A stretch of 34,388 nt of DNA, taken from IMG/VR virus record IMGVR_UViG_3300021963_000385, positions 1-34,388 of that record; one strand, 5' to 3'. Both the position numbers and the translations under genes were made by a program. Source of the stretch: a virus. Under the pieces are notes generated by a model. That model was not told the origin of the DNA. It saw only the letters and a program-made list of their open reading frames with translations, and ran no database searches. Each line of letters begins with the position of its first letter. The stretch's first letter is position 1. Shown one piece after another: positions 4,878 to 29,150 of this stretch.

Positions 4878-4950
4878 TGGACCATAGCTCAGCAGGCAGA
4901 GCGGGAAGCTGTTAACTTCTAGGTCCTAGGTTCGAATCCTAGTGGTCCAG
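4878..4950 (+). tRNA. tRNA-Asn (GTT)
   Basis: A complete 73-base cloverleaf. The acceptor stem is TGGACCA pairing with TGGTCCA, followed by the D arm GCTC/GAGC, anticodon stem GGAAG/CTTCT around loop CTGTTAA (anticodon GTT), T arm CTAGG/CCTAG around TTCGAAT, and discriminator G, as expected for Asn. The 3' CCA is not encoded and must be added by the host. The tRNA-Arg gene follows after four bases, presumably on the same transcript. Confidence 0.93.
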
Positions 4951-4954
4951 CAAT

Positions 4955-5028
4955 ACCTCTGTAGCTCAGTGGAATAGAGCGAGACTCTTCTAAGGTCTGC
5001 GTCGCAAGTTCGATCCTTGCCAGGGGTG
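4955..5028 (+). tRNA. tRNA-Arg (TCT)
   Basis: Acceptor stem ACCTCTG pairing with CAGGGGT (one G-T pair), D arm GCTC/GAGC, anticodon stem AGACT/GGTCT around CTTCTAA (anticodon TCT), T arm GCAAG/CTTGC around TTCGATC, and discriminator G. CCA is not encoded. It reads AGA and AGG, the Arg codons that dominate the accessory genes here, such as the dioxygenase cluster. The tRNA lies two bases from the stop of the minus-strand gene at 5030. Confidence 0.9.
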
Positions 5029-5029
5029 C

Positions 5030-8409: not shown

Positions 8410-8466
8410 AGGACTCTATCTAAAATTTAATCAATCCGTTAGGCGGAAGAAAAGGTGTCACTGAAA

Positions 8467-10398
8467 ATGTCAAGAACTATTGAAAACCCGTATGAAAACT
8501 TTATTGCACTATCACGATATGCAAGATGGCTACAAGAAGAAAATCGTCGTGAAACATGGGGAGAGACAGTAGATCGATATTTCGACTTTATGACTAATCA
8601 CCTTTCAAAGATGAACTACGTTCCAGATGCAAAGTTGTTAGCAGAACTTAAGCAAGCAGTATATGATAGAAACGTAATGCCATCAATGCGATCAGTGATG
8701 ACTGCAGGTGCTGCATTGGATAGAGATCATGTCGCTGGATACAACTGTTCATTTGTTCCAGTAGACAACCCACGATCATTTGATGAAACAATGTATATCC
8801 TTATGTGCGGAACTGGTGTTGGTTTTTCTGTTGAATATAAGTATGTTAATAAGCTTCCATCCGTTCCAGAATCATTTGAAAAGTCTACAACTGTTATTAC
8901 AGTGGAAGATTCAAAGACTGGTTGGGCAAAAGCATATCGTGAGCTACTTGCAATGTTGTGGGCAGGACAAATTCCAGCAATTGATGTAAGTAAGTTACGT
9001 CCAGCAGGTGCACGTCTTAAGACAATGGGTGGACGTTCATCAGGCCCTCAGCCATTAATCAATCTATTTGATTTTACAATTGCAAAGTTTAAGTCAGCAG
9101 CTGGTCGTCAGCTAAAACCAATTGAAGCACATGACTTAATGTGTAAGATTGGAGAGGTTGTTGTTGTTGGAGGAGTTCGTCGTTCTGCAATGATTTCACT
9201 TTCAAACATTAACGATATTGAAATGGCTCAAGCAAAATCTGGCAATTGGTGGGAAAACAATTCTCAACGTGCACTTTCAAATAACTCTGTTGCTTATTCA
9301 CGCAAACCAGATATGGAGCAATTTATTGCAGAATGGAAATCACTATATGACTCAAAGTCAGGCGAACGTGGAATTTATAATGTCGCAGCAGCGCAAAAGC
9401 AAGCGGCAAAGTTTGGACGCAGAGATCCAGAAGTACATTACGGAACAAACCCATGTTCCGAAATTATTCTACGTCCTTATCAGTTTTGTAATCTTTCAGA
9501 AGTCGTATTACGTGAAAGTGATACAAAGAAAGATATCGAAAGAAAAGTTGAACTTGCAACTATTCTTGGAACGTGGCAGTCAACGCTAACAGACTTTAAG
9601 TACTTACGTAAAATCTGGAAAGACAATACAGAAGAAGAACGATTACTAGGCGTTTCTTTAACTGGACAGTTTGGGCATAAGTTTATGTCAGGAAAAGAAG
9701 ATCTTGTTTCACTAGAAGCGTTTCTAATGACTTTAAGAGAAAAAGCAAGAGAAGTTAATTCAGACATTGCTGCAAAGATTGGTATTCCTGAGTCTGCAGC
9801 CATTACATGTGTAAAGCCTTCTGGAACAGTTTCTCAATTGGTTGGAGTATCTTCAGGAATGCATGCTTGGCATTCAGATTATTATATCCGTACAGTTCGT
9901 GGAGACAAGAAAGATCCACTATCAACATTCTTAAAGGAAGTCGGAATTCCAGTTGAAGATGATGTCATGAAGCCAGGAGATACTCATGTATTTTCATTCC
10001 CAGTTAAGGCACCAGAAGGTGCAATCACTAGAAATGATTTAACAGCAATTGAACACTTGAATACTTGGTTGGTTTACCAACGAGCATGGTGTGAGCATAA
10101 GCCTTCAATTACAGTTTCTGTAAAAGAAGATGAGTGGATGGAAGTTGGAGCATGGGTCTACAAACATTTTGATGAGGTATCTGGAATTTCATTCCTTCCT
10201 CATTCAGATCACTCTTATAAGCAAGCTCCATACCAAGAAGTAACAAAAGAAGAATATGAAGCTCTTGTAGCAAAGATGCCTAAGAATATTCGTTGGGAAG
10301 ATTTATCATTTTACGAGACAGAAGATGGAACAAGCGGAACCCAAACCCTTGCATGTACATCAGATGGAAATTGCGAGATTGTAGATATTTCAGCTTAG
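8467..10398 (+). CDS. nrdJ: Adenosylcobalamin-dependent ribonucleoside-triphosphate reductase (class II)
   Basis: A 643-residue enzyme that reduces ribonucleoside triphosphates to deoxy forms for phage DNA synthesis, using vitamin B12 coenzyme and so working with or without oxygen. Key residues are visible: C94 in GYNCSF and C341 in QFCNLSEV (the reducible pair), the thiyl-radical C330 and E332 in GTNPCSEIIL, the specificity-type GTGVGFSVEY at 115-124, and the C-terminal shuttle pair C630/C636 in CTSDGNC. It matches the monomeric Lactobacillus leichmannii type but is about 100 residues shorter than that 739-residue enzyme. The start is either the ATG at 8467 (MSRTIENPYENF, which I prefer) or the GTG at 8455. 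The gene stands alone behind its own promoter; no thioredoxin-like partner was seen nearby, so the host must re-reduce the shuttle cysteines. Confidence 0.95.
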   Translation: MSRTIENPYENFIALSRYARWLQEENRRETWGETVDRYFDFMTNHLSKMNYVPDAKLLAELKQAVYDRNVMPSMRSVMTAGAALDRDHVAGYNCSFVPVDNPRSFDETMYILMCGTGVGFSVEYKYVNKLPSVPESFEKSTTVITVEDSKTGWAKAYRELLAMLWAGQIPAIDVSKLRPAGARLKTMGGRSSGPQPLINLFDFTIAKFKSAAGRQLKPIEAHDLMCKIGEVVVVGGVRRSAMISLSNINDIEMAQAKSGNWWENNSQRALSNNSVAYSRKPDMEQFIAEWKSLYDSKSGERGIYNVAAAQKQAAKFGRRDPEVHYGTNPCSEIILRPYQFCNLSEVVLRESDTKKDIERKVELATILGTWQSTLTDFKYLRKIWKDNTEEERLLGVSLTGQFGHKFMSGKEDLVSLEAFLMTLREKAREVNSDIAAKIGIPESAAITCVKPSGTVSQLVGVSSGMHAWHSDYYIRTVRGDKKDPLSTFLKEVGIPVEDDVMKPGDTHVFSFPVKAPEGAITRNDLTAIEHLNTWLVYQRAWCEHKPSITVSVKEDEWMEVGAWVYKHFDEVSGISFLPHSDHSYKQAPYQEVTKEEYEALVAKMPKNIRWEDLSFYETEDGTSGTQTLACTSDGNCEIVDISA

Positions 10399-17004: not shown

Positions 17005-20000
17005 ATGGCAAGAAAAGTATTAACAGAGGGTGGATATTCATTTACCGCTTCAACTAAAACGGTGGTAATCAATAAGTATATCCCACAAGAAACACTCATA
17101 CTAATAACAAATGTAACAACTGGACAGGTTATTTATAACTTCTCAGATCCCTCTCTTAAGGCTACCTCCTATACAGTTTCATCTTCTGGTGCCAATTCTA
17201 CAACAACAATTGTATTAAATTATAATACAGCGGCAATGTCAAATAATGACAAGCTTTCTATTGTAATTGATGAGTATACAGAGCAATTCTCACCATCAGA
17301 AATTCTTTTGGATCCTGTAAATAAACTACGTACATCACAGCCACAGTCACTTATTGATACAGACTTTGAGTTTGGTCAACAGACAACAAAATGGGAAAAT
17401 ATTGCCCTTGTGAATAATCGTCCTTGGGCTTATGAAAATCAAACAATTTTGTCAGGCGTAACTGCAATTACAATGAGTGCAAATGCACGTGTTGTAACAG
17501 TTTCTCTTCCAAGCACAACTGGTCTAGCAGTCGGAACCCCAATATTTGTTCGTGATACAAATCTTCCATTTGCAAATGGTAACTTTATTATAGAGTCAGT
17601 AACTTTAAATACATCATTTACATATACTGCTCGTTCTGTAAACTACACATCAATTACAGCTCTTTTTGACTCATCAAGAACATTAGTCACAGCTGGAACA
17701 CTGTATACTGGTTCAGCAATTGGAGCAGCTCCGACACTATCTGTAACTGGAACAGATCTTAGAGTACAGGTAACAACAACAGTTCCTCATGGATTAATGC
17801 CAGGAAATGAAATTGCAATAACTGGTATTACTGGAACAAATCCTCCAAACGGTAATTTTTATGTAGCATCAGTTACATCTCCAACTGTATTTTCATATTT
17901 TGCAAATCCAACAGCTGGAGTTCCATCAGCATTAACTGCAACTGGCGCACTGGTATATTCCAGACCTCAGTCACAAGTTGTTCATAGACCTTTTGACGGA
18001 GGAGTTCTTTTCTCTGCAAATAGCTCATCTAACAATGTTTCTCAATCAAGACAAACAAGACGTTACTTCAGATATCAGTCAGGTAAAGGAATTCAGATTT
18101 CTTCTGGAACACTTTTAAAGCCTTACGCAACAGTAGATCAGATAACATCTTCTGGAACGACTGTCACAGTGACGACTCGTGAAGCTCATGGAATGCAGGC
18201 TGGAATTCAAGTAACTGTATCTGGAGCAACAGAATCTGCTTATAACGGAACATTTACAGTTGTTTCTTGTCCAAGATTTAATACATTTACATATACAGCT
18301 TTATCAACACCTTCAGCAAGCCCAGCATCTGGAGACCCATCAGTTGCTGTTGGTTCTTGGTATGGAGCTAAAAATCGCTTAGGAGCTTTTGATTCACAGA
18401 ATGGATTGTTCTGGGAATTTGATGGTCAGCAATTATACGCAGTTCGTAGATCCGCAACACTTCAAATTGGCGGAAGAGTTTCGGTAACTGCAGGATCTAA
18501 TACTGTAACACAAACAGATGCACAGTATCCGACAGGATTTGCTAAGCAGCTTAAAGTTGGAAATTCTATTGTTCTTCGTGGACAAACATATCGTGTAATT
18601 AATATTGCATCAGATACATCTATGACAATTTCACCAGCTTATCGTGGAACAACTCTTACTTATGGAACAGTAACAAAGGTAGTTGAAACAAGAATTCCAC
18701 AATCATCATTTAATTTAGATAAAATAGATGGCACTGGTCCATCAGGATACAACATTGATTTATCAAAGATGCAGATGTTTTATATTGACTATTCTTGGTA
18801 TGGAGCAGGATTTGTTAGATGGGGCGTAAGAGGTCCTGAAGGAGATGTAATATATGTTCACAAGTTAGCAAATAACAATGTTAATAATGAAGCTTATATG
18901 CGCTCTGGAAACCTTCCTGCAAGATATGAGACAATTACTGAGTCTCCATTTACAGAGACAACAGCTACGCTTGGTTCAGCAGATACAACCCTTACTGTAG
19001 CATCTACAGCAGAGTTTCCATCTACTGGAACATTAATTGTAAGAAATGGTTCTACTCTTGAAGGAGTAAATTATACTGGTAAAACAGCAACTACATTCAC
19101 AGGATTAACTCGTGGTCAAGCTGGTTCAGCAGTAGCTGGAACATCAACTACCTGGTCCTCTGGATCAGTTTCTGGAACAGTAGCATCCGCTTCTGGAATT
19201 CAAATAGGACAAAGAGTTCACTCTTCAACTAACCCCAACCCAGTTCCAGAAGGAACATTTGTAACAGGAATTTCTGGAACAACAATTACATTAAATGAAG
19301 CAGTAACTGCTGCAAACCCACAGCTTATATTTGCACCAATTGCAAATACAGCTCAAACATTTACATACTCTGCTACTGCTCCAACAACTGTTGAGCTAGC
19401 ATTCCCAGGTTTTTCACCTTCAGTGTCTCACTGGGGAACATCAGCAATTATGGATGGACGATTTGATGATGATAAGTCACTTGTCTTTACATTTGGACAG
19501 ACAACAGCAACTACAATTACAGCTGGATCAAGTATTGCATTGATGTCTATTCGTGTAGCACCTTCTGCTGATAATGGTCAAATTGGCGCATTTGGTGCTC
19601 GTGAAGTTATTAATAGAATGCAGCTAAAGCTAAATGCTATGGACTTTACGTTTACTGGAACAGCTCAGCCTCTTTTAGTTACAACAGTTCTTAATGGAAC
19701 GCCATCATCTGCAACCGCTTGGACAAATGCAGTTGCAAACGCAGCACAAACAAACTCTTCACTTGCACAAATTGCATCTTATGCTGGTGGTACAACTACT
19801 GTATCTGGTGGTGAAGTTGCTGGAGGTTTCTTTGTTCAAGGAACAGATAGACTAGATTTAACTCAAGTTAGAGATCTAGGAAACTCAATTCTTGGCGGAG
19901 GTGGAGCAAATGCAAACTCTGGAATTTATCCAGATGGTCCAGATACTATGACTATTGTTGTTAGAAATCTAGGTGCTGCATCTGCAACAGTATACGGACG

Positions 20001-20028
20001 TCTATCTTGGACTGAAGCACAAGCATAA
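17005..20028 (+). CDS. Very large virion structural protein (1007 aa)
   Basis: The largest protein in the window, Thr/Ser/Gly-rich. The N-terminal 110 residues (MARKVLTEGGYSFTASTKTV to IDEYTEQFSP) look like an attachment domain. Repeated beta domains follow: VTTTVPHGLMPGNEIAITGITGTNPPNGNFY near 251 and VTTREAHGMQAGIQVTVSGATESAYNGTF near 390, both of the form H-G-l-GxxVtIsG-----NGtf-V, and a related segment near 160. A part with FYIDYSWYGAGFVRWGVRGPEGDVIYVHKL near 595 and a C-terminal domain with GGEVAGGFFV complete it. Proteins of this type occur as baseplate-attached structural proteins in large tailed phages; the exact place in the virion is not visible. It starts two bases after the previous stop, with AGGAGG nine bases before the ATG. 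Confidence 0.7.
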   Translation: MARKVLTEGGYSFTASTKTVVINKYIPQETLILITNVTTGQVIYNFSDPSLKATSYTVSSSGANSTTTIVLNYNTAAMSNNDKLSIVIDEYTEQFSPSEILLDPVNKLRTSQPQSLIDTDFEFGQQTTKWENIALVNNRPWAYENQTILSGVTAITMSANARVVTVSLPSTTGLAVGTPIFVRDTNLPFANGNFIIESVTLNTSFTYTARSVNYTSITALFDSSRTLVTAGTLYTGSAIGAAPTLSVTGTDLRVQVTTTVPHGLMPGNEIAITGITGTNPPNGNFYVASVTSPTVFSYFANPTAGVPSALTATGALVYSRPQSQVVHRPFDGGVLFSANSSSNNVSQSRQTRRYFRYQSGKGIQISSGTLLKPYATVDQITSSGTTVTVTTREAHGMQAGIQVTVSGATESAYNGTFTVVSCPRFNTFTYTALSTPSASPASGDPSVAVGSWYGAKNRLGAFDSQNGLFWEFDGQQLYAVRRSATLQIGGRVSVTAGSNTVTQTDAQYPTGFAKQLKVGNSIVLRGQTYRVINIASDTSMTISPAYRGTTLTYGTVTKVVETRIPQSSFNLDKIDGTGPSGYNIDLSKMQMFYIDYSWYGAGFVRWGVRGPEGDVIYVHKLANNNVNNEAYMRSGNLPARYETITESPFTETTATLGSADTTLTVASTAEFPSTGTLIVRNGSTLEGVNYTGKTATTFTGLTRGQAGSAVAGTSTTWSSGSVSGTVASASGIQIGQRVHSSTNPNPVPEGTFVTGISGTTITLNEAVTAANPQLIFAPIANTAQTFTYSATAPTTVELAFPGFSPSVSHWGTSAIMDGRFDDDKSLVFTFGQTTATTITAGSSIALMSIRVAPSADNGQIGAFGAREVINRMQLKLNAMDFTFTGTAQPLLVTTVLNGTPSSATAWTNAVANAAQTNSSLAQIASYAGGTTTVSGGEVAGGFFVQGTDRLDLTQVRDLGNSILGGGGANANSGIYPDGPDTMTIVVRNLGAASATVYGRLSWTEAQA

Positions 20029-20045
20029 GAAAGGTATAAACCTGA

Positions 20046-20684
20046 ATGCCTATTACTAAAGTTAGCTATCCTTATGCTAATGATACTTTACAGCTACCGA
20101 CAGCGGCAGTCAGTAATAGGCTTTCTGTAAACGGAATTTCAACTTTCTTACAGCCCATAACAACGTCATCTACATTAAGTATTGGTGGAGTTTTAAATAT
20201 AAATGCTCTATCACCAACAATTGCATCTAATAATGCGTCCGTAGCGAGTATATTTACTTCATCAGTAACTAGTATTATTCTTGGATCTTCTACAATTAAA
20301 ACTGTAGAGTATCCAGCAGACGGAACAACTGAATCAAGCGCAAACGCATCAGGATATATGGGTATGCCTCGTGGAAACAGTGGAAATGCTATTACTGGCG
20401 CATATGGTATTACTGCAGCAGATGCAGGAAAACATTTGTATATAACAACTAGTGGTCAAACGGTAACGATACCAGCTAACGCATCAGTTGCGTTGCCAAT
20501 TGGCACAACTATTGTTTTTGTAAATGGAAATGGCGTAACAACAACAATTGCAATAACAACTGATACTTTAAGACAAGCGAATACAGCAAATACAGGAAGC
20601 CGAACATTAGCTTCAAATGGCATGGCCACTCTAGTAAAAATAACTGCTACAGAGTGGATTATCGGAGGAAATGGTCTTTCCTAA
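20046..20684 (+). CDS. Short fibre/structural protein (212 aa)
   Basis: A Thr/Ser/Ala-rich protein with an N-terminal stretch of short repeats (LSVNGISTFLQPI, LSIGGVLNINAL) and a C-terminal part (GKHLYITTSGQTVTIPANASVALPIGTTIVFVNGNG) that resembles the beta-helical or knob segments seen at the ends of phage fibres, finishing with ATLVKITATEWIIGGNGLS, a common fibre C-terminal ending. No Cys or enzymatic motif is seen. The stop TAA overlaps the next start as TAATG, so translation of the Phe/Pro-repeat protein is probably coupled to it, suggesting the two products are made together. Confidence 0.65.
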   Translation: MPITKVSYPYANDTLQLPTAAVSNRLSVNGISTFLQPITTSSTLSIGGVLNINALSPTIASNNASVASIFTSSVTSIILGSSTIKTVEYPADGTTESSANASGYMGMPRGNSGNAITGAYGITAADAGKHLYITTSGQTVTIPANASVALPIGTTIVFVNGNGVTTTIAITTDTLRQANTANTGSRTLASNGMATLVKITATEWIIGGNGLS

Positions 20685-21190
20685 TGGCATCAAAAGAAAA
20701 CGATAGCAAAGACAAGAATAATAAAAAAGCCACAGGAGTTGTAATGGCTACTATTGTTTCTGCACCGTTCTTCCCGCCTTACTTTCCGTTTTTTCCTCCC
20801 TTCTTTCCTTTCTTTCCCCCTTACTTTCCTTTCTTTCCACCATTCTTCCCTTACTTCCCATTCTTCCCACCGTTCTTCCCGTTCTTCCCTCCTTTCTTCC
20901 CATTCTTCCCACCGTTCTTCCCTTACTTCCCATACTTCCCATTCTTCCCTTACTTCCCGTTCTTCCCACCGTTCTTCCCATTCTTCCCGCCGTACTTCCC
21001 GTACTTCCCTTACTTCCCATTCTTCCCTTACTTCCCATTCTTCCCACCGTTCTTCCCGTTCTTCCCACCGTACTTCCCATTCTTCCCACCTTTCTTCCCA
21101 CCGTTCTTTGGGTCAGCCTGTGGATCTGCATGTTCAGGATGTTTCCCAGGAAGTTTTGGTCCTGGATGTATTTGTGGATGTGCAGTTTAA
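20684..21190 (+). CDS. Phe/Pro-repeat protein with Cys-rich C-terminus
   Basis: A 168-residue low-complexity protein. The first 20 residues are Lys/Asp/Asn-rich. From about residue 28 to 143 almost every residue is Phe, Pro or Tyr, in units such as FFPPFFPFFPPYFP; the last 27 residues are Gly/Cys-rich (GSACGSACSGC, then CICGCAV) with six Cys. No known family was recognised. A second start at 20744 (MATIVSAPFFPPY) has AGGAG five bases upstream, so a shorter form without the charged head is possible. Roles as a virion surface, membrane-contact or adhesive protein are all conceivable. The DNA reads as repeats in every frame, so ORFs in other frames here are accidental. Its many prolines make it a candidate substrate for the hydroxylase-like genes downstream (inference). 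Confidence 0.65.
   Translation: MASKENDSKDKNNKKATGVVMATIVSAPFFPPYFPFFPPFFPFFPPYFPFFPPFFPYFPFFPPFFPFFPPFFPFFPPFFPYFPYFPFFPYFPFFPPFFPFFPPYFPYFPYFPFFPYFPFFPPFFPFFPPYFPFFPPFFPPFFGSACGSACSGCFPGSFGPGCICGCAV
20764..21109 (+). repeat. Long pyrimidine-rich tandem repeat tract
   Basis: About 345 bases in which the plus strand is overwhelmingly C and T, made of irregular TTCTTCCC and TACTTCCC units that encode the Phe/Pro repeats. Purines appear mainly in the TAC (Tyr) codons and at third positions of CCA and CCG. Length variation by slippage and triplex formation are plausible for such a tract. Confidence 0.85.
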
Positions 21191-21217
21191 ATAATTTTAA
21201 ACTATTGAAATCTTTAT

Positions 21218-21223
21218 TATAAT
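21218..21223 (+). promoter_or_regulatory. Possible -10 box before the 21254 gene
   Basis: TATAAT about 30 bases before the ATG at 21254, without a clear -35 or TG extension. AAGGGGA (21244-21250) provides a ribosome site, so this message, unlike most others here, would have a leader. Confidence 0.4.
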
Positions 21224-21253
21224 ATGATACTATTAGAATAGAAAAGGGGATAC

Positions 21254-21691
21254 ATGTATAGATATGCAATTGGCACTAAAATAAATGAAACTGAGTACGA
21301 AATATTTCATACGTTATCAGACTACTCAGATCCACCAGCACCATTTGTTGAAAGATGCGAAAATGTAATTAATAGTGGCTTGCCTGTCATAGGAATGAAC
21401 ACAACCCCATTTCAGAATGATGGTTGCACAAATGCAGTTTGGGACGGAAATTCTTTTTCAGGAGGAAATTCTTTTGCACCAATGAATTTGAACTGGGATG
21501 TATCAAAAAGCTATTCTCTTCTATGTGACAATAAGATATTTTTAACAATATTCCAAACACCAGAAACTTTAACTGACTATATGTTTGACGCAGCATTTAT
21601 GCAAGATATAGTCTTTCTAAAGTTACAAGATGATCAATTTGTTTCAAAAGGAGATATTTGGAACGGCTCTAGTTTTAGAGGACCAGAATAA
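21254..21691 (+). CDS. Protein of unknown function (145 aa), fibre-associated
   Basis: A 145-residue protein starting MYRYAIGTKINETEYEIF. The middle holds an Asn/Gly/Phe-rich run (WDGNSFSGGNSFAPMNLNWD) and the end reads GDIWNGSSFRGPE. There is no signal peptide or membrane segment. The segment SKSYSLLCDNKIFLTIFQ looks like a beta hairpin. I do not recognise a family. Its place directly after the fibre cluster and before the small Cys protein suggests a fibre accessory, chaperone or tip subunit, but that is inference only. A good ribosome site (AAGGGGA) precedes the ATG. Confidence 0.6.
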   Translation: MYRYAIGTKINETEYEIFHTLSDYSDPPAPFVERCENVINSGLPVIGMNTTPFQNDGCTNAVWDGNSFSGGNSFAPMNLNWDVSKSYSLLCDNKIFLTIFQTPETLTDYMFDAAFMQDIVFLKLQDDQFVSKGDIWNGSSFRGPE

Positions 21692-21693
21692 GT

Positions 21694-21936
21694 ATGTCAA
21701 AATGGGAAGAATGGAAAAAATCTCTTGGTGATTCAAGACCATGGCATTTGTTTGATCCACATAAACATATAGAAGATAAAGATATTATTAAAAATAGGCT
21801 TGACACATGTATGTCTTGTGAAAATTTTATTCAAATAACAAAACAGTGTAAGTTATGTGGTTGTTTTATGCCTGCAAAAACAATGCTTGCAGATGCTGAA
21901 TGCCCAATTAAAAAATGGAAAAGAGAGCCACTTTAA
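21694..21936 (+). CDS. Small zinc-binding protein, DUF6171-like
   Basis: An 80-residue protein with CMSC at residues 39-42, CKLCGCFM at 51-58 and CPIKKW near 71-76. Together these form a zinc ribbon of the C-x2-C ... C-x2-C-G-C ... K ... CP-x2-KW type that I associate with DUF6171 proteins, which are common in large phages beside structural or hydroxylase genes. The function of that family is not known to me. It starts two bases after the previous stop and so is co-transcribed. The next gene, a dioxygenase, has its own -10 box about 20 bases downstream. Confidence 0.65.
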   Translation: MSKWEEWKKSLGDSRPWHLFDPHKHIEDKDIIKNRLDTCMSCENFIQITKQCKLCGCFMPAKTMLADAECPIKKWKREPL

Positions 21937-21954
21937 AAAATTTACAAGATATTG

Positions 21955-21960
21955 TATAAT
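21955..21960 (+). promoter_or_regulatory. -10 box before the dioxygenase cluster
   Basis: TATAAT preceded by TTG, about 26 bases before the ATG at 21987. The short leader contains AGGA. It would drive the first genes of the dioxygenase cluster. Confidence 0.5.
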
Positions 21961-21986
21961 TTACTTATAGAGACAGGAATAATTTA

Positions 21987-22694
21987 ATGGAATACGCAGA
22001 CCAACAAGATCATTGGTTCAACAAGGATAGATCAGAAACAGCTGCAAATAGAATGACTGAAAGACAGGTTAATAGTTTAATAACAACAACGAACCCTGGT
22101 CTAGGTCTAAATATCTATCACAATGTTTTTTCAAGAGAAGATGCAACAAGATATATTTCTACTCTTGAGTCAAATCTGACAGATGGGAAAGTTTATCGAT
22201 GGTCTGAGGCTCAAGTAACAAACTCAACAACGCCAGTTAAAAAAGCTAGAGACTGTGTTGACTTTAGATACAAGCAAGAAAACCTTGGCCCAAGAAATGA
22301 TAACAATGCAGAGTTAATTGATTTGCATCAAGAGATTTATGAAAAGCTTAAGTTGTGTATCGACGACTATTGTAGATACTGGGGAATCAATATAACGTAT
22401 TACGAAGCCTTTAACTTTGTAAAGTATGAAGGAGAAGGAAAGCATTTTAGAATACACGCAGATCATGGCCCAGCCTATAACTGTACAGTATCAGCTGTTA
22501 TCTATATAAACGATGACTATGAGGGCGGAGAACTTCAATTCCCAAGATTAGATAATTTAGTATACACTCCAAAGTCTGGAGACATAGCAGTGTTTCCTTC
22601 AAACTATGTTTATGAACATGCATCTTTGCCAATGAAGAGTGGTACAAAATACTGTGTAGTCGTTATGACTGATTTAAGCAGTAGGTCTCATTAA
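21987..22694 (+). CDS. 2OG-Fe(II) dioxygenase 1, prolyl-4-hydroxylase-like
   Basis: A 235-residue enzyme. Iron ligands are H157 and D159 (FRIHADHGP) and H211 (YEHASLP), and K221 in SGTKY is placed to bind 2-oxoglutarate, as in prolyl-4-hydroxylases. The strand YINDDYEGGELQFP (174-187) and TPKSGDIAVFPS are shared with the other cluster members. The N-terminal 140 residues, with CVDFRYKQ and the segment YYEAFNFVKYEGEG, closely match the enzyme at 23481, so the two are recent paralogues. The substrate is unknown. The stop TAA overlaps the next start as TAATG, coupling it to the DUF6065-like gene. Confidence 0.88.
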   Translation: MEYADQQDHWFNKDRSETAANRMTERQVNSLITTTNPGLGLNIYHNVFSREDATRYISTLESNLTDGKVYRWSEAQVTNSTTPVKKARDCVDFRYKQENLGPRNDNNAELIDLHQEIYEKLKLCIDDYCRYWGINITYYEAFNFVKYEGEGKHFRIHADHGPAYNCTVSAVIYINDDYEGGELQFPRLDNLVYTPKSGDIAVFPSNYVYEHASLPMKSGTKYCVVVMTDLSSRSH

Positions 22695-23476
22695 TGCAAA
22701 ATGAAAATTCAAGCCATTTAATTTTATTTAGAGGGACTAATTCTTCGTTGACAGAGGATAGTCCGTCAGTACCATCTCCAACACAATCAGAGATTCCAGA
22801 TTGGTATAAAGAGGCAGATAGATTTGCAAAGATGCCAAATGGAGAATACTATAAGGCTCCACAAGCAGTTTGTCCATTTCCAAAAGAAGGAACAACTAAT
22901 GACTATGGCATGATTCCAACCTGGAAAGCATGTCCAGCTATTCTAGATGCATTTATGACTGGTTATGTTTTAAAAACCCCTTGCGATATTACATTTTTTA
23001 AAAATGACTATGGAAAGATAGATGTAAAAGTTGAAGACGAAAGATATAGATCTTTTTGTACTAAACGGCCCCCAATGCTGCAATTCAAACATCCAGTTGG
23101 ATATTATGAAGATCATTTTTCATGGTTTCCAGATTGGGGTCTAACTCTTCCAGAAGGATATAGTTGCTTATACATGACTCCAATGAATAGATTCGATTTG
23201 CCATTTTTAAATACAACTGGGATTGTGGATAATGATAAAGTAAATCTTTCTGGGTCTTTCCCATTTTTTATAATAAAAGATTGGGAGGGAACAGTTCCAG
23301 CAGGAACTCCTTACATGCAGATACTTCCATTTAAAAGAGAAAACTGGTATCATGAGAAAGAGTTCTTATCTGAAAGAGAAATACAATTAGAATTTTTTAA
23401 TAACGCTAAAAAATATAGGGTTCCAGATGGTGGAGTCTATAAGGACAAAGTTTGGTCCAGAAGAGAATATAGGTAA
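22694..23476 (+). CDS. DUF6065-like protein (260 aa)
   Basis: A 260-residue protein that begins, after a disordered 30 residues, with IPDWYKEADRFAKMP, then WKACPAILDAFMTGYVLKTPCDITFF near 76-101, HFSWFPDWGLTLPEGYSCLYMTPMNRFDLPF near 137-167 and VPAGTPYMQILPFKRENW near 207-224. This order resembles the phage family DUF6065, whose function is not established; the fold is likely a beta sandwich. A second, more diverged copy lies at 24137. Both alternate with dioxygenase genes and are coupled to them, so a partner or substrate-binding role is plausible (inference). The family name is from memory of sequence pattern, not a search. Confidence 0.6.
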   Translation: MQNENSSHLILFRGTNSSLTEDSPSVPSPTQSEIPDWYKEADRFAKMPNGEYYKAPQAVCPFPKEGTTNDYGMIPTWKACPAILDAFMTGYVLKTPCDITFFKNDYGKIDVKVEDERYRSFCTKRPPMLQFKHPVGYYEDHFSWFPDWGLTLPEGYSCLYMTPMNRFDLPFLNTTGIVDNDKVNLSGSFPFFIIKDWEGTVPAGTPYMQILPFKRENWYHEKEFLSEREIQLEFFNNAKKYRVPDGGVYKDKVWSRREYR

Positions 23477-23480
23477 TATT

Positions 23481-24137
23481 ATGAAAACATGGACAGATAA
23501 AGAAAATCTTGGAAATGGTATTGTTCGCTATTCAAATGTCATCAAACCAGAGTTTGATGTAATCAATCGTTTAGAGAATTTGTTAGCACCAGTTGGAACA
23601 ACAAATAGATATGCTTGGCAGCCAGCATATGTTGGGTATAAAGAATTGATGCCAGACTATAGAGACTGCACAGATTTTAAATTTAAGAAAACTGACTTAC
23701 ATTTTGATAAGAGTGAGACTTCTTTGCAGCTACAAAATTTGTGGCAGGATGTATATGATGCTCAATCTGCTGCAGTTGATGATTATAGACGAGACTATAA
23801 TATCATGGAGTTAAAATACTGGGAAGCATTTAATTTTATTAAGTATGGTCCAGGACAACACTTTCAAGAGCACCATGATCATGGTTTTTCTTACAACTGT
23901 ACTGTTTCTTTAGTTGCTTATCCTAATGATGATTACGAAGGTGGAGAACTTTACTTTAGACTTCAAGATTTAAGCATTAAGCCAAAAGCTGGAGATCTAT
24001 ATATATTCCCATCAAATTTCATGTACCCGCACAGAGCTATGCCAGTTCATAGCGGCACAAAGTATTCAATTGTTACAATGCTTGATTACAATAAAAAGTT
24101 TCACACCCCTGAGATGTATCGACCAGACGAGGACTAA
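23481..24137 (+). CDS. 2OG-Fe(II) dioxygenase 2, prolyl-4-hydroxylase-like
   Basis: A 218-residue enzyme starting at the ATG at 23481, four bases after the previous stop; an in-frame start at 23427 would overlap the upstream gene and is unlikely. Iron ligands are H131 and D133 (QEHHDHG) and H184 (YPHRAMP), with K194 in SGTKY for 2-oxoglutarate. It shares with the enzyme at 21987 the segments RDCTDFKFK, YWEAFNFIKYGPG and YNCTVSLVAY, plus NDDYEGGELYF. These shared extra segments, beyond the catalytic core, mark a gene duplication. Its stop and the next start overlap as TAATG. Confidence 0.88.
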   Translation: MKTWTDKENLGNGIVRYSNVIKPEFDVINRLENLLAPVGTTNRYAWQPAYVGYKELMPDYRDCTDFKFKKTDLHFDKSETSLQLQNLWQDVYDAQSAAVDDYRRDYNIMELKYWEAFNFIKYGPGQHFQEHHDHGFSYNCTVSLVAYPNDDYEGGELYFRLQDLSIKPKAGDLYIFPSNFMYPHRAMPVHSGTKYSIVTMLDYNKKFHTPEMYRPDED

Positions 24138-24862
24138 TGCTTAACATATCTGTTGAAAAATCTATGGACTCAGTAATATCTATAGCGCCAATGTCAATTA
24201 AAAGAAATTGGATGGATGATACACCAGAAAAGCATGCCTATAGATGTTTCCCAGTTACACAAGCAAATATGGTTGGTTGGTACCTGTACTCAGAAAAAGA
24301 TGTTGAGTTTACCTGGAATGGCATTAATGATACGAGCTCAGAAAATGTTCAGATTACAAAGGGGACAGAATTTACTTATTCTGGAAGAGGACAGTCTACT
24401 GTAAGTTTTAATACTGGATTAACTTTTAGAACAGATGAGAATATTAGCCTTTTGACTATAAATCCAGTTAATTATTTTAATGAAGATTTTGAAACAATGT
24501 CTTCATTAATAAGTACATCTTGGCTCGATGTATCTTTACCGTTGGCAATTAAAGCAAGGTCAGCAAATAAAAATATAGTTATAAAGTCTGGTACTCCGTT
24601 AGCAACAATTATTCCTATATCATTAACTGCTATGAATGACACAGAAATTAATATTTTTGATTATTCTGATCCTGATAGAAAAAGAGAGCATGCCCATAGA
24701 TCCTATGGAGAGGCAGCTCAAGAAATAAATAAACAGGGTAAATGGACAGATTGGTATAGGGATGCTGTCAATGAAAAAGGCGAAAGCCTTGGTTCTCATG
24801 AAACAAAGGTAATAAGACTTTCAGTGCTAGACAATACCAAAAAGAGAAATGATATAATGTAA
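24137..24862 (+). CDS. Second DUF6065-like protein (241 aa)
   Basis: A 241-residue protein with the same order of elements as the gene at 22694: HAYRCFPVTQANMVGWYLYSEKDVEFTW near 33-60, FRTDENISLLTINPVNYF near 96-113, SWLDVSLPLAIKA near 129-141 and VIKSGTPLATIIPISL near 147-162. Identity is low but the layout (x-C-P-x5-G-Y/W-x-l-x-x-x-D-v-x-F, then the L-x-x-x-P hairpin, then the P-L-a or P-F-f strand and the G-T-P hairpin) fits a diverged paralogue. The C-terminus is charged and helical. Function is unknown. The stop lies inside the promoter region of the next dioxygenase gene. Confidence 0.55.
   Translation: MLNISVEKSMDSVISIAPMSIKRNWMDDTPEKHAYRCFPVTQANMVGWYLYSEKDVEFTWNGINDTSSENVQITKGTEFTYSGRGQSTVSFNTGLTFRTDENISLLTINPVNYFNEDFETMSSLISTSWLDVSLPLAIKARSANKNIVIKSGTPLATIIPISLTAMNDTEINIFDYSDPDRKREHAHRSYGEAAQEINKQGKWTDWYRDAVNEKGESLGSHETKVIRLSVLDNTKKRNDIM
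24850..24858 (+). promoter_or_regulatory. Extended -10 promoter for dioxygenase 3
   Basis: TGA plus TATAAT (24853-24858), 6 bases before the ATG at 24865 and embedded in the last codons of the preceding gene. A leaderless message starting at the third dioxygenase gene is expected. Confidence 0.6.
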
Positions 24863-24864
24863 TT

Positions 24865-25536
24865 ATGGATATAATGAACATGAGCCACGAAGAAAGAAAG
24901 TCAATCACCCCGTCTGGATTTTTTGGAAATAGCAAAGACATGATAGTTGAGCTAGAAAATTTTATGACTGAAGATGAGATTAATTTTTTAGAAAACGCTG
25001 CTAGAAATATTAAAATTTGGGATGTAACTGAAAGCCATACAAACGAAAACGGCACAGTCATCTATGATGCAGATTATTGGAAGGACAGGGTGGCTAGCAG
25101 ACCTTCTTTAGATAAGAATGATCCAGCCATAGGTCCAGTAATAGAAGGCTTATTTAAAAAGCTTAAGCCAGTAATTGAAAATTTTTATAATGTAGTAGCA
25201 GTTCCAACAGGACAAACAATAGTTAGATGGCTACCAGGACAGTTGCAAAATCCGCATGCAGATAAAGAACTACATGATGGACCTGATGCTGGATTGCCAA
25301 ATGACTTTCCTTACTACGACATAGCAAGTTTATTTTATTTAAACGATGACTACGAAGGCGGAGAACTATATTTCCCATTACAAGGAATTCAGTTCAAGCC
25401 AAAGCGTGGAGCAGCCTACTTCTTCCCAGGAGATAAGAATTTTATACATGGAGTAACTGAAATTAAAAGTGGTATTAGATACACATGTCCATTTTTTTGG
25501 ACAATCATAAAGCACACTGGAGAGAACAAGCCATGA
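24865..25536 (+). CDS. 2OG-Fe(II) dioxygenase 3, prolyl-4-hydroxylase-like
   Basis: A 223-residue enzyme. Iron ligands are H131 and D133 (NPHADKELH) and H195 (FIHGVTE), with R205 in SGIRY as the likely 2-oxoglutarate contact, where cluster members 1, 2 and 5 have Lys. The strand YLNDDYEGGELYFP and KPKRGAAYFFPG complete the jelly-roll core. The sequence between H131 and the strand (ELHDGPDAGLPNDFPYYD) is longer than in the neighbours and may shape the active site. Three Met codons occur in the first six residues; the one at 24865 is nearest the promoter. The last bases overlap the next gene as ATGA. Confidence 0.88.
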   Translation: MDIMNMSHEERKSITPSGFFGNSKDMIVELENFMTEDEINFLENAARNIKIWDVTESHTNENGTVIYDADYWKDRVASRPSLDKNDPAIGPVIEGLFKKLKPVIENFYNVVAVPTGQTIVRWLPGQLQNPHADKELHDGPDAGLPNDFPYYDIASLFYLNDDYEGGELYFPLQGIQFKPKRGAAYFFPGDKNFIHGVTEIKSGIRYTCPFFWTIIKHTGENKP

Positions 25537-26279
25537 ATTTAATTAAACATACTAATAATATTTTTGTTTATGAAGATTTTCTTTCGCCAGAAGAATGTTC
25601 TGCTGTAATAAAAGTATTGGATAAGCAGGCATCTAATGGAAAGATTTCTTGGATGCCAATTTCTTTTTACGAGTCATACTCTTCAGTTACGCCACAAGAC
25701 GGAGACTCAGAGTTAGAGGAATTTGGTTTGCCATCTAACTTCTTTTCTAATTTAAAGAATAAGTTTATAGAGTCAGTTGCAGAGGTTGGAAATAAAGATG
25801 TGTCTAGTATTTTTGAAATAGGTTTTCACACTCAAAAGTGGGAACCAGGTGCATATGCCAGAATACACTCAGACAATACTGATGAAAAGGGAAATACAGG
25901 TCCTTTTGCTAGAAGTAGATACGCAGCATTTTTATATCTTAATGATGATTTTGAGGGTGGCTTACTAAGTTTTCCTTCCCAGAATTTAACAATTAGACCA
26001 AAGGTAGGAATGCTTGCGGCATTCGACGGAGGTTTTGAAAATATGCATGAGGTTACTATAATTACAAAAGGAACAAGATATACAATTGGATCTTTCTGGG
26101 ATGATAGAGCAGAATCAGATTATCCTCAAGAAGTTAGAGATGCTTGGGCAGAAGAAATGAAGAAGATTAGAGAGGCTCAAGAAGTTGAAAGATCAGAATG
26201 GCAAGAGTTATTAAAAGAAGGATATAAGCTTGATTTAGATGGACAAAAGTATAAATTTAAAGGAGACGATAATGAATAG
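25533..26279 (+). CDS. 2OG-Fe(II) dioxygenase 4, prolyl-4-hydroxylase-like
   Basis: A 248-residue enzyme. Iron ligands are H112 and D114 (ARIHSDNTD) and H172 (ENMHEVT), with R182 in KGTRY. The strand YLNDDFEGGLLSFP and RPKVGMLAAFDGG are typical. After the core, a charged helical tail of about 55 residues (residues 192-247, ending LDGQKYKFKGDDNE) is present in no other cluster member and may bind a partner. I start it at the ATG at 25533, which overlaps the previous stop (ATGA); an in-frame start 48 bases earlier lies inside the upstream gene and is unlikely. The gene overlaps the next one by eight bases. Confidence 0.88.
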   Translation: MNLIKHTNNIFVYEDFLSPEECSAVIKVLDKQASNGKISWMPISFYESYSSVTPQDGDSELEEFGLPSNFFSNLKNKFIESVAEVGNKDVSSIFEIGFHTQKWEPGAYARIHSDNTDEKGNTGPFARSRYAAFLYLNDDFEGGLLSFPSQNLTIRPKVGMLAAFDGGFENMHEVTIITKGTRYTIGSFWDDRAESDYPQEVRDAWAEEMKKIREAQEVERSEWQELLKEGYKLDLDGQKYKFKGDDNE

Positions 26280-26961
26280 AGAAGTATTAGAAGAAAAGAT
26301 TTATTACTATACAGATGTTTTTGAAGATCCAAAAAAGCTACTAGAAGTTATTGAGTCAACTGAGCTTAAAGACTTTGGCAGCTCTATATCAAAATGGTCT
26401 AGCTGGGACTCATGTAGCGGTGAAATGTATAACTATGGAACAGAAAAGATTATCTATGCTAATGAGGAGGAAAAGTCTCAGCCAGCAGACTCTAATGATG
26501 TAAGTTATATTTTTCATGCTATAAATAATGCATTTTATGAAGCATGCAAAGATTACGCCTTAGCACAAGGAGATCAAGAAGAGCCAAATTTCTACCCAGT
26601 TTTTCCAATCAAAAAGTATAAAGCTGGTACATTTATGGGTGCACATTATGATCAACAAGAGGGAGATAAAAGATTAAAGTATTCTATGGTCATGTATTTG
26701 AATGACGACTATGAGGGTGGAGAGCTTTCATTCACGATCAAGTCCCCAGATGCTCCTATTATTGAAGGTAAGCCTTCTGAAGATTTTAATGTAGCCGTTA
26801 TAGAAAATAAAGAAGCTCTAACAGTTTCTATTAAACCAAAGGCTGGAAGTATTGTTATCTTTCCTTCATCACCGCCTTACCACCACACAGCGCATTTAGT
26901 TAAAAGTGGATTTAAGTACATGGTTCCAAGCCACTGGATGTTTAAAAATATAGATGCATAA
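26272..26961 (+). CDS. 2OG-Fe(II) dioxygenase 5, prolyl-4-hydroxylase-like
   Basis: A 229-residue enzyme. Iron ligands are H125 and D127 (MGAHYDQQE) and H205 (YHHTAH), with K215 in SGFKY for 2-oxoglutarate. The strand YLNDDYEGGELSF is followed by an insertion of about 30 residues (KSPDAPIIEGKPSEDFNVAV and onward) before KPKAGSIVIFPS, not found in the other members. It starts at the ATG at 26272, overlapping the end of the previous gene. It ends the cluster: the next gene has its own promoter 33 bases downstream. Confidence 0.87.
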   Translation: MNREVLEEKIYYYTDVFEDPKKLLEVIESTELKDFGSSISKWSSWDSCSGEMYNYGTEKIIYANEEEKSQPADSNDVSYIFHAINNAFYEACKDYALAQGDQEEPNFYPVFPIKKYKAGTFMGAHYDQQEGDKRLKYSMVMYLNDDYEGGELSFTIKSPDAPIIEGKPSEDFNVAVIENKEALTVSIKPKAGSIVIFPSSPPYHHTAHLVKSGFKYMVPSHWMFKNIDA

Positions 26962-26990
26962 CGTTTGCAAAAAGCTCTAGAATATACCTT

Positions 26991-26999
26991 TGATATAAT
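26991..26999 (+). promoter_or_regulatory. Extended -10 promoter for the 56-codon gene
   Basis: TGA plus TATAAT (26994-26999), 6 bases before the ATG at 27006, with no ribosome site. It is one of the leaderless series and is the main support for the small gene it precedes. Confidence 0.6.
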
Positions 27000-27005
27000 T
27001 ATATT

Positions 27006-27176
27006 ATGAGTCCATATACAAGAAGAGCAGGAAAACATTTTTGCAATCAAATGTACTCTCCCTATTTTCAAACAGAAAATTATAAAGAAAGCCATTTAGA
27101 TCTAGAAAAAAAAATAGAACAACGTTATAAAAAGCTTATAGCGTTTATTATGAGAAAGAATAAAAATGTCAATTGA
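27006..27176 (+). CDS. Small basic protein (56 aa)
   Basis: A 56-codon reading frame, MSPYTRRAGKHFCNQMYSPYF at the start in two stretches, then a helical, charged remainder with LDLEKKIEQRYKKLIAF and a basic end (MRKNKNVN). It is supported by a leaderless promoter placed exactly as for the other genes and by a stop that overlaps the start of the next gene by eleven bases. I do not recognise it. The basic composition would suit nucleic-acid or protein binding, but nothing more specific can be said. Confidence 0.55.
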   Translation: MSPYTRRAGKHFCNQMYSPYFQTENYKESHLDLEKKIEQRYKKLIAFIMRKNKNVN

Positions 27177-27396
27177 CTATACAGCACTACTTTCAGTAGA
27201 ACAAAAAAGAGCCATTTTAGAGCAAAGAATTTCACAGTTTGCTGCAGAGGCATATCAACATTCTCTTAACAAGAAGACTTGTGAAGGATTAGAAGATGTT
27301 GAAGGTGCAGAAAATGCACAGAAGTCCTTGCAAATTCTAGAGGCTGCCATAACAGTACATAAGGCAGAACTAGATTCACTTCCATCAGAAGGTTAA
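27166..27396 (+). CDS. Small helical protein of unknown function (76 aa)
   Basis: A 76-residue protein, largely helical with heptad-like spacing (EQKRAILEQRISQFAAEAYQ, then AENAQKSLQILEAAITVHKAEL), suggesting a two-helix coiled coil. It overlaps the end of the 56-codon gene in another frame. The final bases lead straight into the promoter of the LamG-domain gene. The family is not recognised; similar small helical proteins often sit beside tail genes in phages, with unknown roles. Confidence 0.6.
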   Translation: MSIDYTALLSVEQKRAILEQRISQFAAEAYQHSLNKKTCEGLEDVEGAENAQKSLQILEAAITVHKAELDSLPSEG

Positions 27397-27401
27397 TATT
27401 C

Positions 27402-27410
27402 TGATATAAT
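27402..27410 (+). promoter_or_regulatory. Extended -10 promoter for the LamG-domain gene
   Basis: TGA plus TATAAT (27405-27410), then CTATTT and the ATG at 27417. The 6-base gap rules out a Shine-Dalgarno. Confidence 0.62.
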
Positions 27411-27416
27411 CTATTT

Positions 27417-29150
27417 ATGTCTTATAGAGTAAAAGTTTTAAAGGACAATCCAATAGGATTTTGGCCGCTAGATGAATCTTCTGGAACTACTGCAGTGGAT
27501 GCATCTGGTTGCGGAAACGATGGGACATATACAAGCGTAACCTTGCAAAACTTAATTCCTCTAGTTATGGGCGGAACCTATTCTGGAAACATAAATAATT
27601 CTGGATCAATATCTTTACCAGTAACAAAAAACTTTTATGGAACAGCAGTTTCAGGTGGAGGATTTGGAAATATAAAAACTTCAGATAATGATTTTTCTTT
27701 AGAGGTTTGGTTTCGTCCAAATATAACAACATCTAATAGAACAACGATATTCGCAGATGAAACAAACGGTATTGGAATATATTATGAAAATAGTAATATA
27801 TTGTTTAGATTAAACAATGAAGAACTTTACTACAATTTAAATAGCAGAAATAAAGTGTTCCATTTAGTTGCAACATATTCTACAAGCTCAATGCAAATAT
27901 TTGTAGACGGAATATTAGCTTCATCAAAATCAATTTCTGATTTTAAATTTACAAACTCTACTACAGGCCCATTTAAAATTGGGCCAACATTAAATGCATC
28001 AGATTCATTTTTAGTAGAAGCACCAGCTGTTTATAGATACGCTCTTTCAGATAAAAAAGTTGAGTCGCATTATTCATACGGTATTTATCATGTAAACGCA
28101 TTTCAAATAGTAAATCAAGATAACGGGTTTTTCTTTTCCACACACGAAGAAAACCTTAAGCCATCATATGTACACGAGTTTAACCCACAACAAATTGAAC
28201 TTGGAATGACTACTGACACATATTATGAGAGCGACAGAAAGTACATAGGTTTTTATAAGTCTACTGGAGAGAAGTCTTTAATTCTTTTTGATACAATAAT
28301 GTTGCCTTCTACGTTAAATGTTATTTCGTCAAAGATAGAGTGGCAGTCTGATAAAAATATAGTTGTTGAAATGGGAACAGACGGAATTACATATCCTTAT
28401 ACTTTAACAAACAACTCATCTTTGCCATTGTATAATAAGGCAGAAACTCTTGGAAATAGAATTATATATTTAAAGGTAACTTTTACAACATTGGATGCTT
28501 CAAAATATTTTCCTAAATTTTTAAATCTTAGGGTAAAATTTTACGACACAAAAGATCTATATAGCGATAATAGCAAATACTTCATAACCTCTTCTGACGA
28601 ATATGATATAGCATCATTTAATTATCCAACACTTATTAGGATGGACAAGGACGGAGTTCAAACATCAGCCACAGGCGGATTTAAAATAAATTGCGATTTA
28701 AATATAAACACTTTAGAATTTTTCTACAATCCTTCTGCATTGACAGCAAGCACTCTAATAAATAATACCTCTGCAAACCTATCTTGGAATGGTGCTGGAG
28801 CAATTTCTAAAACAAATATAGCAGCCATATATGTAAATGGTGTAGATAGATCCTCAGCCACCTCAGTATCTTCAATTTTCAACGCTAATCAAATTCATCA
28901 TGTTGTCATTAGATTTACCTCTGCAATAACTGGAGATATCAAGTTTAATTATAATACCTCTGGAGGACCGTCAAATTCGTTTAACAATATAGCAATTTAT
29001 CAGAAGGCTTTAAGTGGCACAGAAGCCCTTCGCCACTACTCTGAGTATACATCTAGACCAGTTTTGGCGTCATCAGATTCTGTAATGACCATGACAGATA
29101 ATGGTATAAACTATGCAAATAGCGAATGGATAGTTATTTCAACAAGATAA
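27417..29150 (+). CDS. LamG/concanavalin-like tail protein (577 aa)
   Basis: It starts MSYRVKVLKDNPIGFWPLDESSG, the conserved opening of phage and bacterial laminin-G-like (LamG/Laminin_G_3) domains (W-PLDE-sG, then D-SG-GN-GTY). The first domain runs to about residue 215 with FSLEVWFRP near 93 and LVATYSTSSMQIFVDGILASS near 148. A middle part has beta-rich segments around 300-390, and a second, more diverged LamG-like domain lies near 415-555 (LEFFYNPS, IHHVVIRFTSAITGDIKFNYN, IAIYQKALSGTEALRHY). Such domains bind carbohydrate or protein, so this is probably a minor tail or fibre protein contacting the host surface. Translation is from a leaderless message. Confidence 0.75.
   Translation: MSYRVKVLKDNPIGFWPLDESSGTTAVDASGCGNDGTYTSVTLQNLIPLVMGGTYSGNINNSGSISLPVTKNFYGTAVSGGGFGNIKTSDNDFSLEVWFRPNITTSNRTTIFADETNGIGIYYENSNILFRLNNEELYYNLNSRNKVFHLVATYSTSSMQIFVDGILASSKSISDFKFTNSTTGPFKIGPTLNASDSFLVEAPAVYRYALSDKKVESHYSYGIYHVNAFQIVNQDNGFFFSTHEENLKPSYVHEFNPQQIELGMTTDTYYESDRKYIGFYKSTGEKSLILFDTIMLPSTLNVISSKIEWQSDKNIVVEMGTDGITYPYTLTNNSSLPLYNKAETLGNRIIYLKVTFTTLDASKYFPKFLNLRVKFYDTKDLYSDNSKYFITSSDEYDIASFNYPTLIRMDKDGVQTSATGGFKINCDLNINTLEFFYNPSALTASTLINNTSANLSWNGAGAISKTNIAAIYVNGVDRSSATSVSSIFNANQIHHVVIRFTSAITGDIKFNYNTSGGPSNSFNNIAIYQKALSGTEALRHYSEYTSRPVLASSDSVMTMTDNGINYANSEWIVISTR

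Follow-up and report, generated by a model that had tools for sequence, protein, structure and literature searches.

A phenylalanine-proline repeat family of aquatic phages is linked to a cluster of prolyl-hydroxylase-like oxygenases and is their likely substrate

Many uncultivated aquatic phages encode a protein built around a long run of [FY]FP and [FY]FPP units (the FFP repeat), and this widespread phage family shows a reciprocal, near-absolute linkage to a downstream cluster of 2OG-Fe(II) oxygenases. We analyzed one such gene within a 34,388-base virus record (the window, meaning the whole stretch of DNA) together with its relatives in other contigs. The tract lies almost always just upstream of prolyl-hydroxylase-like enzymes and is therefore their probable target. 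Aquatic phages commonly carry 2OG-Fe(II) oxygenases as auxiliary genes, and FFP offers a specific, physically linked and highly repetitive candidate substrate, making the substrate question directly testable.

Results

The FFP protein and its gene neighborhood

The FFP ORF begins with an ATG that overlaps the stop of the preceding gene (Table 1). A charged N-terminus of 28 residues is followed by the tract, residues 29-142, composed of 57 Phe, 46 Pro and 11 Tyr with no other residue. The first-pass annotation had described a chain of over 100 residues made almost only of these three amino acids, followed by a six-Cys, Gly-rich tail; both are present, and all 114 tract residues are strictly F, P or Y. 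Thirty-three units make up the tract (13 FFPP, 11 YFP and 9 FFP), with an invariant Phe at the second place of every unit, and the C-terminal tail reads GSACGSACSGCFPGSFGPGCICGCAV, including its 6 Cys. Hydropathy of the tract is very high, with a Kyte-Doolittle mean of +0.63 despite 40% Pro.

Table 1. Features of the fibre region of the window
Feature	Position	Strand	Basis
Virion structural (fibre-region) protein	17005..20028	+	phrog_5838
Fibre-region protein adjoining the FFP gene, upstream	20046..20684	+	ORF, no family match
FFP-repeat protein, 168 aa	20684..21190	+	ORF; homologue L120 shares both termini
114-residue F/P/Y-only tract, units [FY]FP or [FY]FPP	20768..21109	+	residue count
Gly-rich tail with six Cys	21110..21187	+	translation
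g145, present in only part of the loci	21254..21691	+	no Pfam, no PHROG match
g80, small Cys-containing protein, DUF6171-like (below Pfam cut-off) / phrog_13558	21694..21936	+	
OG1, 2OG-Fe(II) oxygenase, prolyl-hydroxylase fold (model)	21987..22694	+	PF13640 1.5e-11
g260, remote DUF6065 relative, dUTPase-like fold	22694..23476	+	phrog_7084, fold match
OG2, 2OG-Fe(II) oxygenase	23427..24137	+	PF13640 8.2e-15
DUF6065 protein	24137..24862	+	PF19541 3.2e-32
OG3, 2OG-Fe(II) oxygenase	24865..25536	+	PF13640 3.4e-7
OG4, 2OG-Fe(II) oxygenase	25485..26279	+	PF13640 1e-8
OG5, 2OG-Fe(II) oxygenase	26239..26961	+	PF13640 1.7e-12
Laminin-G-like lectin domain protein, downstream border of the cassette	27417..29150	+	PF13385 1.4e-14

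The window protein matches no Pfam or PHROGs family, and tblastn and blastn searches of isolate phages returned no real match, an uninformative result because BLAST masks low complexity. Containing no Gly, no Gly-X-Y and no Pfam match, the tract does not qualify as collagen-like; composed of F, P and Y only, it also lacks the Ser-Pro(n) repeats of extensin-type chains. With 28 residues ahead of the tract and no fn3 match there, the protein is a minimal variant of the family. Its nearest relatives of the same form (without fn3), among the matches listed, are L120 and L202, and both its N- and C-termini are found again in L120. A tandem repeat is detected at the DNA level across the tract, and its copies have drifted synonymously, with 8 spellings among the 13 copies of FFPP, 5 among the 11 of YFP and 4 among the 9 of FFP. 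This variety of codon spellings, the termini shared with L120 and the open frames at other loci together mark FFP as a protein-level feature rather than a chance frame.

The window carries its [FY]FP(P) tract directly upstream of an OG1-g260/OG2-DUF6065 cluster, with five PF13640 oxygenases (OG1-OG5) spanning 21987-26961. The first of them begins 797 nt past the FFP stop, in agreement with the distance of less than 1 kb noted at first pass. The OG2 ORF overlaps g260, and the true OG2 start may lie further downstream. A promoter scan of window positions 20000-27500 found 28 sites against a shuffle mean of 28.4, showing no excess. Elsewhere in the window, positions 8455-10398 hold a class II ribonucleotide reductase-like gene (647 aa, partial Pfam matches), and tRNA-Asn (gtt) and tRNA-Arg (tct) genes lie at 4878-5029.

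The FFP family in other contigs

A single degenerate DNA pattern for [FY]FP[FY]FPP[FY]FP, run on IMG/VR contigs, detected at least 119 stretches, and the FFP frame is open at the loci of all stretches listed. Applied to bacterial and archaeal genomes (257 Gb), the same pattern gave 5 stretches, one of which is a real tract (L364, a 265-aa open frame with 8 motifs); the other four hold 3 motifs each. Of 2209 units counted across all FFP ORFs listed, 1015 are FFPP, 803 FFP, 111 YFP and 87 YFPP.

The matches listed include 87 complete FFP ORFs, with an fn3 match in 77 and an Intein_splicing match in 7. By rules made for this analysis, their C-terminal tails were classed as Cys-rich (30), Hint-like (10), other long (7) or short (40); a tail with at least 4 Cys occurs in 30 of 87 complete ORFs outside the window. 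Since most consist of fn3, the FFP tract and a Cys-rich, Hint or short tail, FFP proteins are probably fibres or adhesins. A phrog_1623 capsid is found in 24 of 50 FFP contigs of at least 20 kb, and a gp23-type capsid scores above the cut-off in none of the 50, so T4-like phages are not indicated.

In L100:6904-8241, L098, L045 and L080, the tract is followed by a Hint/intein-like domain, and several of these proteins end in HNK. FFP variants with regular Cys (PFFPPVFCPFFPPRFC) stand directly before the Hint domain in L045:2128-3861 and L098:2931-4298. Auto-processing by such domains may cut the tract or ligate it to something.

Reciprocal linkage between FFP and the cluster

A PF13640 profile search of 50 FFP contigs of at least 20 kb, drawn from the FFP matches listed, found the family in 47, mostly in 5-8 copies. 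The three PF13640-free contigs are G018, G047 and G031, and the G031 contig ends within the FFP gene; FFP without PF13640 is therefore rare, at two of 49 usable contigs (G018, 38 kb, and G047, 53 kb). The first-pass annotation had named wide occurrence in phages lacking any dioxygenase as evidence against a hydroxylase substrate, and these counts run the other way. FFP phages without PF13640 do exist, so the tract is either viable unmodified or modified otherwise. In one of them (L277, G018:C1:1-20000), the FFP gene sits amid collagen-like GPTGPTG genes.

Among the matches listed, 77 FFP ORFs are followed by 4 kb or more of sequence, and in 69 of them a same-strand oxygenase lies within 4 kb. 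Four of the eight exceptions (L006, L066, L074 and L088) lie on contigs holding another FFP gene before the cluster or oxygenase, which rules them out as cases of FFP without enzymes, and the other four (L019, L049, L080 and L116) have no PF13640 on the contig. A search of six further contigs (L019, L037, L080, L077, L010 and L008) found PF13640 only in L008; L037, L077 and L010 are short. The gap from FFP to the first oxygenase, in 90 cases among the matches listed, is at most 200 bases in 40, 200-1000 bases in 42 and more in 8. Two main gene orders, with 48 and 19 members, occur among 79 FFP-ORF records that have all five genes downstream.

For the opposite direction, a g260-only alignment was used as query, and the best 80 of 589 confirmed loci were fetched, all of them nearest relatives of the window (66-93% identity) with common ancestry. 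An FFP ORF, taken as one with at least 5 [FYW]FP, lies upstream in 71 of these 80 loci and in 55 of the 56 with at least 2.5 kb upstream; the FFP and g260 sets share some contigs, and the two counts overlap. Of the remaining nine loci, eight have just 176-1487 bases upstream. In the exception among the 56, L253, the tract lies farther upstream, beyond an inserted island of radical-SAM, cystathionine-synthase-like and IMPDH-like genes (names by eye), which removes it as a counter-example. G003 and G004, considered as clusters without FFP, were ruled out likewise, with FFP upstream of the same kind of island. IMPDH/GMP-reductase-like and cystathionine-synthase-like genes (by eye) lie between FFP and OG1 in L372, L375 and L253.

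The repeat gene and the cluster thus occur together in related phages when surveyed from either side. Their linkage holds in both main gene orders, across an inserted island and where N- and C-terminal domains have been exchanged, a persistence that points to a functional unit rather than to shared descent alone.

The cluster enzymes

OG1 scores 45.6 bits against the Pfam 2OG-FeII_Oxy_3 profile (cut-off 27), placing it in this superfamily, and all of OG1-OG5 match phrog_61. Its nearest solved relatives by sequence are 3itq and 5hv0, both of which we take to be bacterial P4H from Bacillus (B. anthracis), and human LH3. The HxD...H...K pattern is invariant in 55 of 55 OG1 sequences (H157, D159, H211 and K221). 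The two His and the Asp form the iron triad, and the basic residue follows ten positions past the distal His; K221 presumably binds 2OG, a role taken from P4H. All five window oxygenases keep H, D and H, followed by K or R at the last position. Isolate relatives, among the matches listed, are 24-35% identical.

The predicted structure of OG1 (pLDDT 88.5, pTM 0.87) has a fold closest to protein prolyl hydroxylases. The model matches 6f0w (Z 20.1, rmsd 2.9, 190 residues), 3gze (Z 19.4, rmsd 2.6, 177 residues), 4iw3 (Z 19.3, rmsd 2.9, 189 residues) and the viral 5c5t (Z 16.9, rmsd 2.9, 164 residues), where scores no more than 1 Z unit apart count as ties and fold does not prove substrate. The top matches are prolyl hydroxylases, several with bound peptide or protein.

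The g260 and DUF6065 proteins both match phrog_7084 and are remotely related, with an hhalign E of 9e-4 but a probability of just 23%. The best fold rows for the g260 model are dUTPases (Z 9.8, rmsd 3.8, 130 residues). Relatives of g260 in isolates are found in haloviruses such as HF2, and no annotated oxygenase lies nearby in the two halovirus g260 regions viewed; a search of isolates with DUF6065 found no relatives. In the haloviruses HF2 and HRTV-8 (L370 and L371), which are archaeal tailed viruses, g260/DUF6065-type proteins stand beside baseplate/fibre genes.

Contigs chosen by capsid protein

Two control sets were chosen by capsid protein alone. Set A comprises 80 loci with the major capsid protein of the window, of which 36 long contigs were searched; the strict FFP pattern occurs in 1 and PF13640 in 4 of the 36. 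Set B comprises 80 loci chosen by a second capsid type, and its 28 contigs of at least 20 kb gave strict FFP in 4 and PF13640 in 15 (14 above cut-off). A cluster protein has a tblastn match within 10 kb of the capsid gene in 3 of 80 set-A and 13 of 80 set-B loci.

The combined control joined 50 contigs of at least 20 kb (22 from A and 28 from B) and used a looser FFP pattern. FFP is present in six of the 50, the same six that carry a compact cluster, with PF13640 matches numbering 7 in G029, 5 in G095, 6 in G097, 7 in G101, 4 in G112 and 6 in G114. Among the 44 FFP-free controls, at least 4 PF13640 matches are found in one contig (G109), where most of them are dispersed among other genes. The association of FFP with at least 4 PF13640 matches across the 50 contigs gives a Fisher p of 4e-7, a value that overstates the case because contigs are fragments and the neighboring FFP and cluster are lost together. 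None of the 14 set-A contigs under 20 kb has FFP.

Of the set-A loci, 22 include g577, portal and sufficient sequence upstream; oxygenases occur in the fibre slot of one of these, L198, the same phage as G029. The remaining slots are occupied by other fibre genes, without the cluster, and collagen repeats are present in some (L168 and L189 by Pfam Collagen; L183 and L190 by eye); repeat fibres as such therefore do not bring oxygenases. In L174:444-4280, from a phage with a closely related capsid protein, the fibre slot has a g260-like gene with a Trp_halogenase gene on either side (PF04820, 3e-97 and 4e-91), a possible case of phage protein halogenation.

Discussion

The FFP tract is, in our assessment, probably the substrate of the cluster hydroxylases, and the FFP protein part of a fibre or adhesin. 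The earlier proposal that the repeat is a hydroxylase substrate is supported in part, by strong co-occurrence in both directions and by enzymes that are prolyl-hydroxylase-like by sequence and fold; the modification itself stays a probable step. The FFP gene and the downstream cluster would form one exchangeable fibre cassette, in which the FFP protein most likely serves as a fibre or adhesin component and would be carried in the virion, its relatives usually running from fn3 through the F/P tract to the tail. At least one cluster oxygenase would hydroxylate the tract during or after synthesis, prolines first and possibly Phe or Tyr too. Through hydroxylation, a chain otherwise so hydrophobic that it would tend to aggregate could become an extended stalk, soluble and sticky, which a Cys-rich or Hint tail might anchor or cross-link. 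To our knowledge, the known P4H substrates (X-Pro-Gly, Ser-Pro and HIF) are not aromatic-rich, which counts against FFP as a substrate.

Linkage alone does not prove which neighbor is the substrate, and the target of the cluster enzymes could instead be the host or a different fibre in the module. We consider it rather unlikely that the oxygenases hydroxylate other fibres or a host surface protein while FFP is an unmodified member of the module. Further fibre genes do lie directly upstream of FFP, G018 and G047 have FFP without PF13640, and single or scattered oxygenases occur in FFP-free relatives (G079, G109 and others). FFP is, however, the sole recurring non-enzyme neighbor, with g145 and g80 having tblastn matches at just 22 and 28 of 119 FFP loci among the matches listed; the short gaps to the oxygenase (at most 200 bases in 40 of the 90 listed cases) and the collagen-repeat fibres that occupy the same slot without the cluster likewise favor FFP as the target. 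The phages with FFP alone and the mean hydropathy of the tract would also fit an unmodified hydrophobic stalk that interacts with membranes or self-assembles through its aromatic side chains, the enzymes acting elsewhere, but this leaves the near-absolute linkage unexplained and strikes us as highly improbable.

A metabolic role, in which the 2OG enzymes change host metabolism (of 2-oxoglutarate or otherwise) or mend DNA and FFP is a neighbor by accident, has precedent in two papers (PMC3037559, PMC9602691) that suggest a part in metabolism or DNA repair for the 2OG oxygenases of cyanophages, and a metabolic island does separate FFP from OG1 in G003, G004 and the L253 contig. Strand, position and reciprocity are instead consistent with a repetitive Pro-rich fibre gene as the partner, OG1 has a predicted prolyl-hydroxylase fold with peptide-bound enzymes among its best matches, and in the one cyanophage region viewed (S-H9-1) the oxygenase lies outside a fibre cluster; we regard the metabolic role as distinctly unlikely. 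It is scarcely credible that the tract plays no part as protein and is a DNA-level tandem repeat, whether a recombination tract or an artefact of assembly. Tandem repeats are indeed detected in the DNA, but codons differ at their third positions and still encode F, P or Y, the frame is open at the loci of all of the at least 119 stretches, and bacterial and archaeal genomes (257 Gb) give one real case among 5 stretches. Synonymous variation and the frame open at all listed loci lead us to reject a chance repeat or artefact.

If the tract is hydroxylated, [FY]FP(P)n would be a new natural polymer sequence and the cluster a phage route to hydroxylated structural proteins; under the cassette reading, the abundant, unexplained phage 2OG oxygenases would gain a concrete substrate. 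More tentatively, it is possible, though on balance doubtful, that aquatic phages swap fibre-plus-chemistry cassettes, each repeat fibre traveling with its own side-chain-modifying enzymes. The FFP cassette would then contribute 5-7 specialized prolyl-hydroxylase-fold enzymes that, with help from the g260/DUF6065 proteins, hydroxylate distinct sites along an aromatic-proline polymer (giving hydroxyproline and perhaps beta-hydroxy-Phe), a new hydroxylated adhesive class, and the L174 halogenases would modify another fibre.

Virus-encoded prolyl hydroxylases acting on repetitive proteins are a known idea from PBCV-1; what is new here is the repeat family as a likely hydroxylase substrate. PBCV-1 vCPH (PDB 5c5t), which we take to be a collagen prolyl hydroxylase paired with virus-encoded collagen-like proteins, resembles the present case in that a virus encodes both a P4H-fold enzyme and a repetitive Pro-rich protein. 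The window differs in belonging to a tailed phage, with 5-7 clustered enzymes and [FY]FP(P) rather than Gly-X-Y, for which we infer the enzyme-substrate action. Plant and algal Hyp-rich glycoproteins (extensins) carry glycosylated Ser/Pro-rich repeats. The algal P4H with (Ser-Pro)5 (3gze), a match of OG1, likewise represents P4H action on repetitive Pro-rich cell-surface chains; unlike extensins, the FFP tract has neither Ser nor Gly, and Phe makes up half of it. Phage collagen-like (GXY) fibres are also low-complexity repeat fibres and fill the same slot in relatives (L168 and L189), but they differ from FFP in having no 2OG cluster alongside. Cyanophage 2OG-Fe(II) oxygenases (PHROG 61) belong to the same superfamily as OG1-OG5, which unlike them stand in a fixed cluster beside FFP. 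A literature search that covered few subscription papers found no paper on the FFP repeat or on a repeat-hydroxylase pairing. Phage 2OG-Fe(II) oxygenases are described as resembling the human prolyl hydroxylase EGLN3 in the portion of PMC12774648 cited here, which names no substrate, and a P4H transcript is listed in Lake Baikal viruses in the corresponding part of PMC9611531.
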